DNA of 64,000 bases from Weissella confusa (lineage in GTDB: Bacteria > Bacillota > Bacilli > Lactobacillales > Lactobacillaceae): contig CP168942.1 of the NCBI GenBank assembly GCA_041871065.1, positions 1,892,501 to 1,956,500 on the forward strand, in the 5' to 3' direction. The translations under genes were made by a program, and so were the position numbers. Below the pieces are notes generated by a model. That model made no database searches. It saw nothing but the letters and a program-made list of their open reading frames with translations, and was not told the origin of the DNA. The stretch's first letter is position 1. The number at the start of each line of letters is the position of its first letter. Positions 26,948 through 54,030 of the stretch are shown here, one piece after another.

Positions 26948-27748
26948 CTAAATCCAGCGCGTTGCAATTAAGACAACGGCAAATACGATAAATCCAATGA
27001 CTGCAACCGTATCTTGCTTGCCCCAAGTCAAAACACGGTACTTCGTGCGGTGATCACCACCACGGTAACCACGGGCTTCCATAGCATCCCCAAGCTCAAT
27101 TGCACGCTTAATCGCGTTAATGAACAATGGAATAAGCAATGGTACAAACGCCTTAATGCGACTAACGATGTTTCCTTCGTTGAATTCAACACCACGTGCA
27201 CGTTGCGCATTCATAATCGTCTCGGCTTCATCCATTAGTGTTGGCACAAAGCGCAACGCAATTGACAACATCAAGGCCAACTCAGCAACGGGGAAGCCTA
27301 CCTTTTTCAAAGGCGCCAGCAAATTCTCCATTGCGTCCGCAACTGCTAGTGGCTGGGTTGTTAGTGTCAAAATGGTTGAAAACATGATAATCAAGACGAA
27401 GCGTACGAACACTTCGATACTGTTAATCACACCATCCGTGGTAATCGTGATAATCCACCAGTGCCAAAGTACGTGACCTGTTTGGACAAAGAATAATTGC
27501 AAAAGTGTTGTGATAAACATCAAAAACAATAATGGTCGTACGCCACGTAAGAAGACACCAACACCCAAGCCAGTTAAGGTAATGGCCATCAACGTAAAGA
27601 TTCCGGCAACCACATAACCAGCCACATTATTGGCAAAGAAAATCACAAAAATAAAGGCGATGCTGAGCACTAGTTTTGTGCGCGCATCCAAACGGTGAAT
27701 CCATGACTCACCGGGCATATAACGTCCAATCAAGAGGTTATTAAACAT
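26948..27748 (-). CDS. ecfT: ECF transporter transmembrane component EcfT
   Basis: 266 residues with about five to six helices. The two coupling motifs are visible: ARGVEFNEG and ARGYRGGDHRTK, the second the typical A-R-G cytoplasmic signature that docks onto the ATPases. EcfT joins exchangeable S-components to EcfA1/A2 for vitamin uptake. It overlaps the end of ecfA2 by 8 bp. Confidence 0.96.
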   Translation of the reverse strand: MFNNLLIGRYMPGESWIHRLDARTKLVLSIAFIFVIFFANNVAGYVVAGIFTLMAITLTGLGVGVFLRGVRPLLFLMFITTLLQLFFVQTGHVLWHWWIITITTDGVINSIEVFVRFVLIIMFSTILTLTTQPLAVADAMENLLAPLKKVGFPVAELALMLSIALRFVPTLMDEAETIMNAQRARGVEFNEGNIVSRIKAFVPLLIPLFINAIKRAIELGDAMEARGYRGGDHRTKYRVLTWGKQDTVAVIGFIVFAVVLIATRWI

Positions 27749-28604
27749 GCGCTTCCCCTCCTAATTTTGCAGCCAATTGATCCGCCAATTGGTCGATATC
27801 TAAGACATTTTCAAGTTGCAAGCCCTTATCGGCAAGTTGATCCGCAAACTGCTTGGCGATTGGCACATCAAGTTGCTTTTCATGGAGCCACGCCACATCC
27901 GCAAAGACTTCGGCTGGCGTCCCTTCTTTCACAACGGTACCGCCTTCGAAAATAACCACGTGATCGGCATATTGCGCAACATATTCCATTTGGTGCGTAA
28001 TCAACACGACCGTCATGTCGCGTTCCTTTTGCAAGCGTGCAAACAGTGTCATTAATTCTTCTTGCCCAGCAGGATCTAGTCCAGCCGTGGGCTCATCAAG
28101 AATCAACAAATCCGGTTCCATTGCCAAAACGCCGGCAATCGCGACACGGCGCATTTGACCACCAGACAACTCAAAAGGTGAACGCTCATCAAATCGTTCA
28201 GCCATCCCCACCGTGCGCAAGGCACGTTGGGCAGCTTCTTTCGCTTCGGCTTCCGACTTACCAAAATTCTTTGGACCAAACATCACGTCCTTCAAGACCG
28301 TCTGTTCAAATAATTGTGCTTCAGGGAATTGGAAAACAAGTCCCACGTGAGCACGCATTTGGTTCAGCTCTTTTGGCTTCGTTGTTGGCACAATCCGTTG
28401 TTCACCAATCGTAATTTCGCCAGCCGTTGGGATTACCAACCCGTCTAGGTGCTGCACCATAGTCGACTTACCTGAACCAGTGTGCCCAATTACTGCCGTG
28501 AACTTTCCTTCTGGCATGGTGAAGTTAACATCATGCAAACCTGGCGTCGCGAATGGCGTGTTCAATTGATACGTAAAACCTACTTGGTTGAAATTGATTG
28601 CCAT
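27741..28604 (-). CDS. ecfA2: ECF transporter ATPase EcfA2
   Basis: 287 residues from the ATG at 28604; the frame overlaps the end of ecfA1 by 25 bp, indicating coupling. Walker A GHTGSGKST, Q-loop FQFPEAQLFE, signature LSGGQMRRVAIAG, Walker B LLILDEPTAGLDP, and H-loop ITHQME are all intact. Energises the shared ECF module. Confidence 0.96.
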   Translation of the reverse strand: MAINFNQVGFTYQLNTPFATPGLHDVNFTMPEGKFTAVIGHTGSGKSTMVQHLDGLVIPTAGEITIGEQRIVPTTKPKELNQMRAHVGLVFQFPEAQLFEQTVLKDVMFGPKNFGKSEAEAKEAAQRALRTVGMAERFDERSPFELSGGQMRRVAIAGVLAMEPDLLILDEPTAGLDPAGQEELMTLFARLQKERDMTVVLITHQMEYVAQYADHVVIFEGGTVVKEGTPAEVFADVAWLHEKQLDVPIAKQFADQLADKGLQLENVLDIDQLADQLAAKLGGEAHV

Positions 28605-29422
28605 AGCCAATCCACCATCCCTTCAGTCGTTAAGTATGAGTCGGGAACATCAATCCCACGTTCACGCAACTTTTCCTTTAGTTGTTCTGCGAAAGGCACT
28701 GCCAAACCGAATTCGCGCAACTTTTCAGCGTTGGCAAAAACGTCTTCTGGCGTACCTGTTTGCATCAAATCACCATCGTTAATCACGATAACGCGGTCAG
28801 CACTCGCTGCCTCTTCGATGTCGTGCGTGATTGAGATGACCGTCAACGTGTCACCAAGTTGACGCTTCAAATCATGCACCAACGCAATCATTTCACGACG
28901 TCCCTTGGGATCAAGCATGGCCGTTGCTTCGTCCAGGATTAAGATTTGTGGTTGAATGGCAAGCACAGATGCAATTGCCACACGTTGCTTTTGACCGCCA
29001 GAAAGGCGGGCAGGTTCGCGATCTGCGAACTTAGCCATGCCAACCTTTTCAAGTGCTTCTGTAACGCGAGGCACCATTTCTTCACGTGGAATACCACGAT
29101 TTTCCATCCCAAAGGCCACATCGTCAGCTACCGTTGCGCCGACAAATTGGTTATCCGGATTTTGAAAGACCATCCCCACTAAGTCACGAATGGCCCACAT
29201 GTTATCTTCGTTAACTGGCGTGCCGGCAATCGTAATCTCACCTGCCGTTGGCGCCAACAAATAATTCAATAGTTTCGCTAAGGTCGACTTACCCGACCCA
29301 TTATGTCCAATAATCGCAATCCACTCACCTTGATTGATCGTTAATGAGAGATCATTCAAGGCTGGTGTCTCACTATTTGGATATGAGTACGTCACATGCG
29401 ACAACTCGATAATTGGCGTCAT
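28580..29422 (-). CDS. ecfA1: ECF transporter ATPase EcfA1
   Basis: 280 residues from the ATG at 29422, seven bases after GGGGGG (a GTG two codons earlier is less likely). Walker A GHNGSGKST, Q-loop FQNPDNQFVGA, signature [13 protein letters not shown], Walker B ILILDEATAMLDP, H-loop ITHDIEE. First gene of the operon; the cobalamin-type S-component at 47.0 kb would depend on this module. Confidence 0.96.
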   Translation of the reverse strand: MTPIIELSHVTYSYPNSETPALNDLSLTINQGEWIAIIGHNGSGKSTLAKLLNYLLAPTAGEITIAGTPVNEDNMWAIRDLVGMVFQNPDNQFVGATVADDVAFGMENRGIPREEMVPRVTEALEKVGMAKFADREPARLSGGQKQRVAIASVLAIQPQILILDEATAMLDPKGRREMIALVHDLKRQLGDTLTVISITHDIEEAASADRVIVINDGDLMQTGTPEDVFANAEKLREFGLAVPFAEQLKEKLRERGIDVPDSYLTTEGMVDWLWQSISTK

Positions 29423-29535
29423 GTTCACGCCCCCCTTACTTATTTTTTGCTACTTACCATAATACCAAACTCGACCTATGTTTTGTGGCGTTTGGTGCAA
29501 TTTGTCGGGTACAATAGTTTTGAGAGGATTTACAT

Positions 29536-36854: not shown

Positions 36855-37008
36855 ATGTTCCTCCTGTTAAGATTTTGATTCGTACCAAAAGACCCCCAGT
36901 ACATACTGCACCGGGGGTCAAAAGTCGCTTACGCGTTTTTCACTTCCTCGGCGGGTTATTAAGTCTTACGACACCTGCGTCTTAGGTAGAATCGATTTAT
37001 TACTCGAA
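36855..37008 (-). ncRNA. L10 leader RNA of rplJL
   Basis: About 150 nt between the promoter and rplJ. It contains a terminator-like hairpin (GACCCCC 36891-36897 with GGGGGTC 36913-36919 followed by TTTT) and conserved-looking elements such as CCGCCGAGGAAGTG, consistent with the L10-L12 autoregulatory leader. Confidence 0.7.
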
Positions 37009-47035: not shown

Positions 47036-47557
47036 TCAAGTTTTTTGCGGTATTTTTTGATACATCATCAGTATCCGAGAAAACGGATGAAATAGCGCTA
47101 TCACGCACACAAACGTCGCCACACAATGAACGAAATCAAACGATAATCCGGCCAGCCAATAACTCCAAATTGCCGGCCAATTAAAGCCACCAAATAAGAA
47201 TGGTGCTTGCAAAATTGTCGTCCAAAAACCGTAAGTTAAGCAAAAGACTAAGCCAACAATCAACGCCATGCTTTTTTCATCAGCAATATGCCGACTGCCG
47301 CTGGTAATCAAGACTAATCCGGCATACAAAATTATTTGCACCACAACGACTGGGTGCATCCCCAACAACAATCCCGTTAAAATCACGGCAAGACTTGTTG
47401 CTGGCAAGGCAATGCGCCAGCCAAAATACCAAGCAACAAGAATGACCAAAGCAGTGAACGGGGTCACGTTTGGCCACGGATGCACGAACAGGCGCGCGAC
47501 AACCATCACGGCCGTCAACACGCCTGTCATCGCCACCCAATGTAGCGTTTTTGTCAT
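47036..47557 (-). CDS. ECF transporter S-component, probably for cobalamin
   Basis: 173 residues with about six membrane helices and an N-terminal region (VLTAVMVVARLFVHPWPNVTPFTALVILVAWYFG) like S-components that pair with EcfT/EcfA. The gene overlaps the DUF4430 gene by 1 bp and lies downstream of a class II (adenosylcobalamin-dependent) ribonucleotide reductase gene, which makes vitamin B12 the likely cargo. This is inference from context. It needs the EcfA1-EcfA2-EcfT module at 27-29.4 kb. Confidence 0.8.
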   Translation of the reverse strand: MTKTLHWVAMTGVLTAVMVVARLFVHPWPNVTPFTALVILVAWYFGWRIALPATSLAVILTGLLLGMHPVVVVQIILYAGLVLITSGSRHIADEKSMALIVGLVFCLTYGFWTTILQAPFLFGGFNWPAIWSYWLAGLSFDFVHCVATFVCVIALFHPFSRILMMYQKIPQKT

Positions 47558-47967
47558 TAGAACTGCTTCAACTCAAAGGTAATACGATCACCGGAATGCA
47601 ACTTCAAATCAGCGGGCGCTTCACTGGTTTGCTTTCCATTTACCGTATAAACCCAGTATTGGTTCTTCACTTGATTTTGGGCACGACCATCAATTTCAGT
47701 GATAAACCCGTCGGCCGTCACTGACATCTTTGGCTCACGCTTCTCGTTTTGGGCCAAATCCAAAAGCGTTTCACCCTTTTTCAACGTCACTTTGAACGTC
47801 TTCTCTTTATCATCATGCTTCACAACCATTGTCACATGACGTTCTGTCTTTGCTTGCGTTGTTTGGGCATCTGTTCGACTTTGCCAATGCTGCATACCGA
47901 ACAATGTCGCACCAATAATCAAAACTAGCGCAATCAACAACATCAAAACTTTATTAATCACTCGCAT
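47557..47967 (-). CDS. DUF4430-domain exported protein
   Basis: 136 residues: a membrane helix near the N-terminus (residues 6-25) without a lipobox, then an exported DUF4430 domain (GETLLDLAQNE, ITEIDGRAQNQVKNQYWVYTVNG, HSGDRITFELKQF). The domain is related to the C-terminal beta domain of transcobalamin/intrinsic factor and is often found beside ECF S-components. A B12-capture role at the cell surface is plausible. Last gene but one of the cluster, 15 bp after the reductase. Confidence 0.82.
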   Translation of the reverse strand: MRVINKVLMLLIALVLIIGATLFGMQHWQSRTDAQTTQAKTERHVTMVVKHDDKEKTFKVTLKKGETLLDLAQNEKREPKMSVTADGFITEIDGRAQNQVKNQYWVYTVNGKQTSEAPADLKLHSGDRITFELKQF

Positions 47968-47982
47968 CTCTCTGCTCCTGCG

Positions 47983-50162
47983 TTACTTAATTGGGCATGC
48001 ACCCGTCTCACAATCACTTGAATCAACCAAGTCCATCAACTTATCTTCACTGTGTAGCGCTTCGTAAACCGCTTGTACATCACCGAATACTGATACTGAA
48101 CGTTCAGCATAATCTTCAGCTGAAATTGGCTCCTTTGGCGCTTGCGCAAAGCCGTGTCCTGAGTAAGGCAACATTGACGTTGACTTAATTTGTGGGGCGT
48201 ATTGGCGCAACATCTTAGCCAACAGTGGCTTCTCATCCTCTTGGAACGTAATCGTGCAGCTAACTGAATTGTCAGCCCAGTACTTTTGCAAGAAGGCTTG
48301 GTTCGCCAATTGCTCGGCAACACTGACTTCACCTGCTGACTTAAAGCCAGGATAATCAGCTGAAGCAGCCTTAACTGGGAACTCCACAACCATCGTGTTT
48401 TCTGAGTATACATCTGGCTCGATATGGTAACGAGCAGCTTGCAACGCCTTCAACAATGGATCCGTATCTTGGAAACGAATGCGTTGAATCAAGTGGTCAG
48501 CGTAGTTAAAGTGCATACCTTCTGAAACACCCGTCAACTTTGAAACCGTACCTGATGGCTTAACCGTTGTGCACTTCACTGATGGGTTGCAGTGCAGCGT
48601 TGCTGAGTATTGTGCATCAGCTTCCTTAACCGCATGGTACAAACGGTCAACTTCATTAATCAACTCTTGGTTGTAGATTGGTGTATCACCATCCCAGCCC
48701 GTCACAACAGGGGCACCGAATGACGTCAAAACCCAATCTTGGATACCTGACAAAGACACCCCGATACGACGGTTCTTGTTAATGATTTGACGTGAAATCT
48801 CCCAATCATATGGGCTAAATGTCACACGCTTTGCAAAGCGGGCTCCCAATGCAACGATACGAGCAGGATCAAATCCTTGTTCCATCGCAACGTTCGGGAA
48901 TACCTCAAACAAATTGCAGGCTTCACCATTAGCCAACGAAATTTCACCACATGGGTTCGTTCCTTCAACATCGGCATCAATTCCTGGTTACTCACCATCC
49001 GCCAAACGGCCGTAGTTACGCAACAAGTCCAAGTTACAACCCCAGGCTCACCATTTTCAGCAATGGCTGCGGCGATGTCATCGTATTGAGCTGTGTCATC
49101 AGCCGTTACGAAAACAGAATTGTTAGATGCCCAACGGTGGTGGTAGAGCTTTTCCTTGTCTTGCTTCATCGCAACGAAGGCTGCATCATCGGCATCCCCA
49201 AGCGCGATTTCTGCAGAACGACGCACACCACCAGAAACAACTGTCTTACCAATCAAGTTGGCGATGTCCGTGCAATCAACCGATGACAAGTGCTCACCCA
49301 ACGTGTCGTTCAACAAGTCGTTCACATCTTGAATCAATTCAATCAATGGTGCTGGACCAGAAGCAACACCACCGAAGCCCTTGATCTTAGCGCCCTTAGC
49401 ACGGATAGCTGAAATATCATAAACCACAGCGCGCTTCATATCTTGACGGAAGTGGCGATCAATCAAATCAGCCGTCATCAAGACCCAACCTTCACGTGTG
49501 TCAGGCACTGTCACAACATCGGCATCCCCAACCATAATTTCAGTTGCGTTATCAGCACCAGCAATACGAGCCTCTTCATACGCATCAGCTTCAGGGTTAA
49601 TCACGATAGTTGCATCAACTGTTTGGGCAACTGCCGGCATTTGCGCGAAGTTCTTTTGTGTCACAGAAACACCAACACCGCCACCCTTCATCAATTGGTC
49701 GAACAAGAAAGCAAATGGCATTGAGGCCATGATTTCTTGCTTATCTGCATATGGTGGCACGATGTGACTCTCACCGTATGCTTGTGGGCGCATTGCCACA
49801 AACCAGCAGTTGTTCAACGCATCCCCGTGCGCCTCTTGATAAGGCGTACCTGAAATCCACAAGTTACGACCAGATGGTGTTGCAGACAATGAATAAATCG
49901 CACGGAACAATTCTTCGGCTTCGATTTGTAGCGCATCAATATCCTCAACTGATGCTGTTCCTTCTTGCAAACGTGGATCCAAGTTGATGTTTCCTTCGAC
50001 TACACGCTTCACTGTCTCATGCCATTCTTCCGTACGGCCCGCCGCATCATTCCAACGTGCATACGTACGCTTGTAGGTTACCCAACCCAACGTTCCCCAG
50101 TGTGGCTTAATGTTCGCAATTGTTTCGGCGACAAACGCGTCTGATAACTTAATAGACCCCAT
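47983..50162 (-). pseudogene. nrdJ: adenosylcobalamin-dependent ribonucleoside-triphosphate reductase (class II), disrupted
   Basis: Nearly the full 730-residue monomeric class II enzyme, which makes deoxyribonucleotides using vitamin B12. Start MGSIKLSDAF at 50162 behind AAAGGGG. Visible: allosteric N-terminal part, NNCWFVAM with one active cysteine, SGGVRRSAEI, NPCGEI with the radical cysteine, and the C-terminal redox pair CETGAC. The frame is broken: one base is missing between 49035 and 49036 (GVV then NLDLLRNYGR in another frame), and an in-frame TAA occurs at 48988-48990 before IDADVEGTNPCGE. Two lesions argue for real decay, although the base deletion alone could be a sequencing error. 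Confidence 0.9.
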
Positions 50163-50226
50163 TCCAATACCCCTTTTTGGTAACATTTCGTTAGTATACG
50201 AACATTACCCATTATTTCTTGTGTCT

Positions 50227-53701: not shown

Positions 53702-54030
53702 CAAGCATTTTATAAGTTTTAAACAAGTTGAGCAGGAAAGTAAGTTACCTGAAGCATCAAAGAGAGACAACGTTCGGTGTGAGTTGTTATGTGGATTGTA
53801 TCTGAAAATGGCCTGTGATTGGCGTTGGTGAGCAGCAAGTCTGTAAGCTAACGACGGATTGGTCTACGTTACAAGACACACGAATCGGCAAAGCATCATC
53901 TCGCTCACTGCCCGCTCGTTGTTAAGGTCTGGAGTGGCAACGCTCCAGATGAAGTAGAATGGTAACACGAAGACTCGTTTCTATTTGATCATCAATTTAT
54001 TTGAATGGTCATTTGGAAACGAGTTTTTTC
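53702..54030 (+). ncRNA. T-box riboswitch (Met specifier)
   Basis: AG-bulge element (AGAGAGACAACGTTCGGTG), specifier loop GAAAATGGCC with ATG at 53808-53810 (Met), T-box sequence AGAATGGTAACACG (53956-53969) and terminator ACTCGTTTC (53973-53981) with GAAACGAGT (54016-54024) plus T6. Controls metQ-metN-metP by tRNA-Met charging. Confidence 0.92.

Follow-up and report, generated by a model that had tools for sequence, protein, structure and literature searches.

We propose, with a probability of about 0.72, that three genes in a 64,000-nucleotide stretch of the Weissella confusa contig CP168942.1 (hereafter, the window) form an operon of the nrdJ-cbrS-cbrT cobalamin uptake type, in which the beta domain of the DUF4430 protein CbrS works together with CbrT, the S-component of an energy-coupling factor (ECF) transporter, at the membrane. 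Gene order, homology, predicted fold, the near-constant pairing of the two proteins, and the riboswitch context of relatives carry this proposal. CbrT would bind cobalamin and carry it across the membrane with a shared EcfA/EcfA'/EcfT module, and the imported cobalamin would supply the class II reductase NrdJ in sister genomes. We infer that CbrS, a beta-grasp domain of transcobalamin type tethered to the membrane, would bind cobalamin close to that membrane, contact CbrT, and in a following step close over, or hand cobalamin into, its outward-facing cavity; CbrT would thus take the role of the alpha/alpha-toroid domain of animal transcobalamin. A sequence-only reading of the window had called the surface part of the system poorly described, but the system is not new: CbrT has been characterised and the cluster nrdJ-cbrS-cbrT-pduO is in print for Lactobacillus delbrueckii, so that layout and CbrT function were already known (PMC5997447). 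The core is a member of this known system with its reductase broken in the window genome, and what is added here is the near-constant CbrS-CbrT pairing, its riboswitch context in relatives, the beta-domain fold predicted for CbrS, and a variant clade.

Operon layout and the identity of the S-component

The order reductase, DUF4430 protein, S-component on the minus strand at 47036-50186, the 15 bp between the reductase stop and the DUF4430 start, and the 1-bp overlap between the DUF4430 and S-component genes are all as the sequence-only reading had reported. This arrangement is not due to chance, because order and spacing repeat in four sister genomes and the order repeats widely elsewhere. The nrdJ product is a class II, adenosylcobalamin-dependent ribonucleoside-triphosphate reductase. 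Matches to TIGR02505 uphold the earlier assignment to this class, but the gene consists of two open reading frames with a frame change and a TAA codon between them, not one. The operon is without a dedicated ECF module; EcfT (scanned) and two ATPases (read) are encoded elsewhere in the window at 26948-29428, which lends support to the ECF transporter of the sequence-only reading.

48822..50186, minus strand: nrdJ 5' open reading frame; RNR_Alpha, RNR-II insertion domain, TIGR02505 355.2 bits; final part out of frame
47983..48936, minus strand: nrdJ 3' open reading frame, second part of the broken gene; TIGR02505 320.4 bits
47557..47967, minus strand: cbrS, DUF4430 protein with a membrane anchor; residues ~42-136 are a beta domain of transcobalamin type
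47036..47557, minus strand: cbrT, predicted ECF S-component for cobalamin, from homology to CbrT and model fold
26948..27748, minus strand: ecfT, membrane part of the shared ECF module; CbiQ family, 170.4 bits
27741..28610, minus strand: ecfA2-like ATPase of the shared ECF module, from position and reading
28580..29428, minus strand: ecfA1-like ATPase of the shared ECF module, from position and reading

The S-component matches CbrT of L. delbrueckii (PDB 6fnp chain A) over residues 7-151 of its 172 (E 1e-7; E 5.6e-67 when used as a profile), lies under the Pfam ECF cut-off (21.2 versus 30.7 bits), and shows the S-component fold in its predicted model; 6fnp was not among the 246 chains listed in a VIA-align comparison of this model, though the sequence comparison does find it. 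The window protein keeps all positions that are invariant in a 42-row CbrT alignment. It has PNVTPFT in loop 1 and GMHPVV in loop 3, versus the common PNVQPVT and GFGIWT or GMGIWT, and so fails a loop-motif test (PNVQPVT and G-x-W), a failure that is not decisive for CbrT membership because the criterion is our own and has no published counterpart. Judged by its sequence, the S-component is CbrT and would bind and transport cobalamin; an S-component for another vitamin was considered and rejected on context. The L. delbrueckii protein binds cyanocobalamin (CN-cobalamin) with a dissociation constant of ~9 nM, and ECF-CbrT transports this form (PMC5997447). ECF-CbrT resembles the window system in an S-component homologous over most of its length, in the order nrdJ-cbrS-cbrT, and in its shared ECF module, but has pduO at the end of the cluster and the loop-3 G-x-W, neither of which the window has, and differs in loop 1 as well.

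CbrS-CbrT pairing and B12-linked neighbours

Since protein searches gave few close relatives (three each for CbrS and CbrT), we used whole-genome and contig scans. When named genomes were scanned with the CbrT alignment, 111 stretches matched, of which 85 were confirmed and 80 kept, and a DUF4430 gene lies at most 60 bp from cbrT in 77 of these 80 loci, a fraction that favours CbrTs bearing the loop-1 motif with which the scan was seeded. The order is cbrS-cbrT in 74 of the 77, reversed in one, and on opposite strands in two; in a further locus, L167, the DUF4430 copy is broken (tblastn). Neighbours in the 80 loci include nrdJ (19), pduO (23), and queG (4), and here and below many neighbour names (EcfT, ATPases, pdu genes, MetH) come from reading protein starts, not from scans. 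One of the 77, L182 (L. delbrueckii DSM 20074), holds a 5' remnant of nrdJ, the last ~40 codons of a DUF4430 gene, an open cbrT, and a broken pduO; from this remnant beside cbrT we identify the published cbrS as the DUF4430 gene. In two Enterococcus loci (L140 and L149) queG lies directly beside cbrT or the DUF4430 gene, and cbrS is on the opposite strand.

Among 251 genomes of the family, DUF4430 was found in 66, the class II reductase RTPR above its cut-off in 46, and the PF01923 adenosyltransferase above its cut-off in 61. Every one of the 46 RTPR genomes also carries DUF4430, and only the window genome (G000) is without the adenosyltransferase, which the other 45 have. A strong CbrT match occurs in 31 genomes, 30 of them with DUF4430 (exception, G018). 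Around all listed DUF4430 places we fetched 86 Lactobacillaceae loci, in addition to the window, and built an S-component profile by iteration on them; this profile also captures S-components of 230-245 aa whose substrate is inferred from context, such as that of L077, which scores above Pfam PF07155 (named for riboflavin) and PF12822. Stand-alone DUF4430 proteins (at most 300 aa) have a CbrT-profile S-component in the locus in 62 of 73 cases, window included. The other 11 loci, judged by eye from protein starts, include six with B12-linked neighbours. Two of these (L043 and L056, from g27 genomes) have no S-component in the locus and a lipoprotein-like DUF4430 gene directly downstream of a large protein with a weak RTPR match, perhaps another kind of class II reductase. 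The remaining four have nrdJ-pduO beside DUF4430 (L103), pduO with pdu-like genes by reading (L119), pdu-like genes with a toroid (L120), and, by reading, queG between the DUF4430 gene and an apparent other S-component with its own ATPase ~5 kb upstream (L109, in G186). A B12 link is likely but less clear in L066 and L105, and not clear in L053, L057, and L093. In this one family, DUF4430 genes are thus not commonly beside S-components for other vitamins, the pattern that would have spoken against the sequence-only reading, L109 being the single apparent case. That reading is supported in its claim that the three genes join a pair for B12 uptake and a B12-dependent reductase in one operon. These counts are made over related rows without phylogenetic correction, and the named and unnamed sets overlap.

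A riboswitch scan that covered 35 of the 80 named loci points the same way. Three sets of loci have a riboswitch for cobalamin or AdoCbl immediately before cbrS in 9 of 12, 3 of 13, and 0 of 12 cases; the 12 are from Bacillaceae, Trichococcus, Atopococcus, and clostridial genomes with no nrdJ in the locus, and the last set is nearly all of the nrdJ type. The riboswitches of relatives are thus a tie between the pair and B12 that does not depend on the reductase. Together with the nrdJ, pduO, and queG neighbours, and with the invariant CbrT positions kept by the window protein, they make it very improbable that the pair serves another vitamin, or is confined to a precursor of cobalamin such as cobinamide, even though CbrT of L. 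delbrueckii also transports cobinamide (PMC5997447).

CbrS, a predicted beta domain near the membrane

PF14478 matches the 136-aa CbrS of the window with E 2.7e-16 (60.2 bits versus a gathering score of 23.8). The predicted model has the transcobalamin beta-domain fold, with 92-96 residues aligning to animal beta domains, which bears out the kinship to animal B12 carriers claimed for DUF4430. Transcobalamin, intrinsic factor, and haptocorrin combine an alpha/alpha toroid with this domain, whereas window CbrS is the beta domain only; a toroid profile found no match in the 15-kb window locus or the 80 cbrT loci, a search that did not extend to the whole genome. The human beta domain by itself (PDB 5no0 and 5np4) binds cobalamin, and the human domains made apart have lower affinity (PMC5599065), but that domain is a laboratory fragment, and CbrS occurs in nature as a solo protein tethered to the membrane. 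For a transcobalamin-like SLBB clade, described with a beta-hairpin insert after the helix, Burroughs et al. 2007 (PMC1796856) proposed B12 scavenging by such exported proteins beside CbiO/CbiQ. CbrS shares with this clade an exported beta-grasp domain, predicted B12 scavenging, and a fold supported by our model, but differs in having no alpha/alpha toroid, a short hairpin, and a group II S-component instead of a dedicated CbiO/CbiQ set. A structure from Ruminococcus gnavus (RUMGNA_00854, PDB 3u7z) carries the entry title 'putative metal binding protein', with no B12 link in the title. In the proposed working, CbrS would bind cobalamin with its beta domain.

Where CbrS acts is indicated by its anchor. 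A simple pattern finds a lipoprotein signal in 53 of the 77 CbrS proteins, and, by reading, the DUF4430 match starts ~5-33 residues past the lipid-anchor cysteine where one is present. Window CbrS lacks cysteine, and as its N-terminus has just a hydrophobic stretch, a signal anchor probably tethers it; its domain begins ~17 residues after this stretch (by reading). With distances this short, action at the membrane is favoured over an outer-surface capture role, and the surface B12 capture that the sequence-only reading had envisaged becomes doubtful. The lipoprotein signals and the binding by the isolated human domain would also suit an independent, high-affinity capture protein that resembles a substrate-binding lipoprotein and delivers by diffusion. 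We regard this as somewhat unlikely, for a domain ~5-33 residues from its anchor cysteine has too short a reach through the cell wall, and a half-site without the toroid should bind more weakly, as do the human domains made apart.

Several observations weigh against the proposal that CbrS binds cobalamin and works with CbrT. In the CbrS profile, from an alignment of 61 proteins (the window's and 60 of the 77), the hairpin that touches cobalamin in transcobalamin is, by reading, ~10 residues shorter than in haptocorrin. Binding and transport by CbrT were shown for the L. delbrueckii protein made in Escherichia coli, and cbrS is named once in the main text of that report, as a cluster gene (PMC5997447), so CbrS seems not strictly needed. 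In the literature searched we found no report of cobalamin binding by a bacterial DUF4430 protein, no paper naming DUF4430 on bacterial B12 uptake, and no function for CbrS, which is named in print. Even a relaxed threshold gave no riboswitch in the window cluster (six matches lay far below the cut-offs), and the scanned nrdJ-type loci have none either. The pairing has exceptions too: L144 and L165 carry cbrT with no DUF4430 neighbour, G018 has CbrT without DUF4430, and G186 and G064 have extra CbrT copies away from DUF4430 genes. At a threshold of at least 60 bits for any CbrT-like S-component, 71 genomes match, of which 63 have DUF4430 and 8 lack it, and 3 of the 66 DUF4430 genomes (G162, G103, and G105) have no such match. 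The CbrT-like protein of G018, a genome with QueG and no DUF4430 match, lies at L226:4510-5013.

The shortened ligand-touching hairpin, the ~9 nM binding by CbrT alone, and the close coupling of cbrS to cbrT would also fit an accessory or assembly factor for CbrT that does not itself bind cobalamin. This seems quite unlikely to us, given that DUF4430 genes stand beside B12-linked genes with no cbrT nearby (queG in L109, nrdJ-pduO in L103, pdu-like genes in L119 and L120; names partly by reading) and that DUF4430 is fused to toroid domains, as expected of a ligand-binding domain.

Such fusions, in which a toroid is joined to DUF4430, occur in seven long proteins (L105, L107, L108, and L111-L114). 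Sixteen more DUF4430 proteins are 301-430 aa long, of which at least that of L097 looks like a lipoprotein, and at L121:5986-7098 an AraC-type regulator has a C-terminal DUF4430; it is perhaps B12-sensing and PocR-like. In addition to the window's arrangement A (a solo DUF4430 protein with a group II CbrT), we find an arrangement B with EcfT-like and fused-ATPase-like genes, an S-component of 210-270 aa, and a DUF4430 protein mostly of 230-275 aa (125-136 aa in genus g4). Outside g4, arrangement B usually includes a separate exported alpha/alpha-toroid protein too. The toroid matches are weak in Pfam (6e-6 for L068, just below the cut-off). In L077, L081, L086, L068, and L097, an exported toroid and a separate DUF4430 protein stand in tandem with a dedicated ECF set, a tandem that looks like a split bacterial transcobalamin. 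Arrangement B loci are probably of the CbrTUV kind (CbrT, CbrU, and CbrV are names from PMC6722938). Like the window, these clusters have DUF4430 with a related S-component, often with pduO, but they carry their own EcfT-like and fused-ATPase-like genes, a DUF4430 protein that is longer except in g4, and, outside g4, usually a toroid.

A broken nrdJ and a clade without a detected adenosyltransferase

TIGR02505 (cut-off 340.05 bits) matches the two reductase frames separately: the 5' part at 355.2 bits lies above the cut-off and the 3' part alone, at 320.4 bits, below it, and in the whole-genome search both pieces are above, with a frame change and one TAA between them. Reading of the sequence places the lesion at about 48985-49045. 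The locus recurs at 93-100% identity in 5 of 28 genomes of the genus, namely the window's own (G000), G255 of the same species, G258, G254, and G256 (66% complete), which represent one or two evolutionary events, not five; a sixth match covers only 23 bases. The four sisters have nrdJ as a single open frame (728-734 aa), and its distance to cbrS and cbrT is unchanged. A cluster of 375 member sequences is represented by an intact protein of 726 aa that shares 99% identity with the 5' frame over 83% of the latter, so intact nrdJ copies exist. Between genomes, the ratio of nonsynonymous to synonymous substitution (dN/dS) is 0.00-0.04 in nrdJ, compared over its four intact copies, 0-0.26 in cbrS, and 0.08-0.13 in cbrT; these values indicate that the three genes are kept by selection in the clade, the window's own branch having too few changes to judge. 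A search upstream of nrdJ in the five genomes for an NrdR-like box gave at best 12 of 16 letters of the consensus, which is not convincing.

The break may be a true lesion or an assembly error. If it is real, the operon here could be a decaying remnant in which cbrS and cbrT are dispensable, a plausible idea that we nevertheless lean against. On its side are the broken frame, the presence of a class I reductase small subunit in the window genome, and the failure to detect PduO, QueG, CobA, or a B12-binding-domain protein there; the searches for QueG and B12-binding-domain proteins revealed no further user of B12 (they did not cover diol dehydratases or ethanolamine lyase). Opposed to it are the open frames of cbrS and cbrT, with 2 and 4 changes relative to the same-species genome, and the intact nrdJ of the four sisters.

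The operon is flanked upstream by nadE and a nicotinate phosphoribosyltransferase gene and downstream by cysS. Elsewhere, the window contains a T-box leader (98 bits) at 53719-53985 on the plus strand, before an exported protein and, by reading, an ABC ATPase, and a ribosomal protein L10 leader at 36878-37004 on the minus strand.

No PF01923 adenosyltransferase above the cut-off was found in any of the 28 genus genomes, and no CobA-type PF02572 in 8 genomes that include the five of the clade; an E. coli control was positive for both. Weak PF01923 matches in G253 and G086 were rejected as lying below the cut-off and inside frames of 573-600 aa. QueG occurs in 2 of the 28 genomes (G236 and G018), and a B12-binding-domain protein, presumably MetH-like from its start, in one of eight (G236, which keeps cbrS-cbrT). 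The B12 enzymes of G236 are not known to need adenosylcobalamin; NrdJ, kept by the window's clade, does. Of 116 CbrT sequences (104 distinct), 110 carry G-x-W at positions 68-70; the six that lack it are the nrdJ-linked protein of G114 and all five from the clade. A second CbrT of G114, near pdu-like genes and pduO, keeps G-x-W; G114 has an adenosyltransferase, which weakens a strict link between loss of the motif and absence of the enzyme. The clade also has the changed loop 1, PNVTPFT, and the model, in which loops were numbered by counting helices, places the loop-1 and loop-3 positions between helices 1-2 and 3-4. In L. delbrueckii, loops 1 and 3 have been suggested as gates that contact the axial ligands, including the varying upper one, and adenosylcobalamin competes less well than other forms for that transporter, which keeps the Trp (PMC5997447).

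Because both outward CbrT loops are changed, with the bulky Trp of G-x-W lost, we tentatively raise the idea, on balance an unlikely one, that CbrS-CbrT of the clade shifted from cobalamin to uptake of ready-made adenosylcobalamin feeding NrdJ, so that the adenosyltransferase could be lost. Behind this idea stand one or two evolutionary events and searches that found nothing, and an undetected adenosyltransferase would explain the facts of the clade equally well. If coenzyme B12 import is true, it would show how transporter specificity can replace an enzyme, and would bear on the exchange of B12 between food and gut bacteria. The pairing and the predicted fold give a definite, testable model, in which half of an animal-type B12 carrier would work with a membrane S-component.

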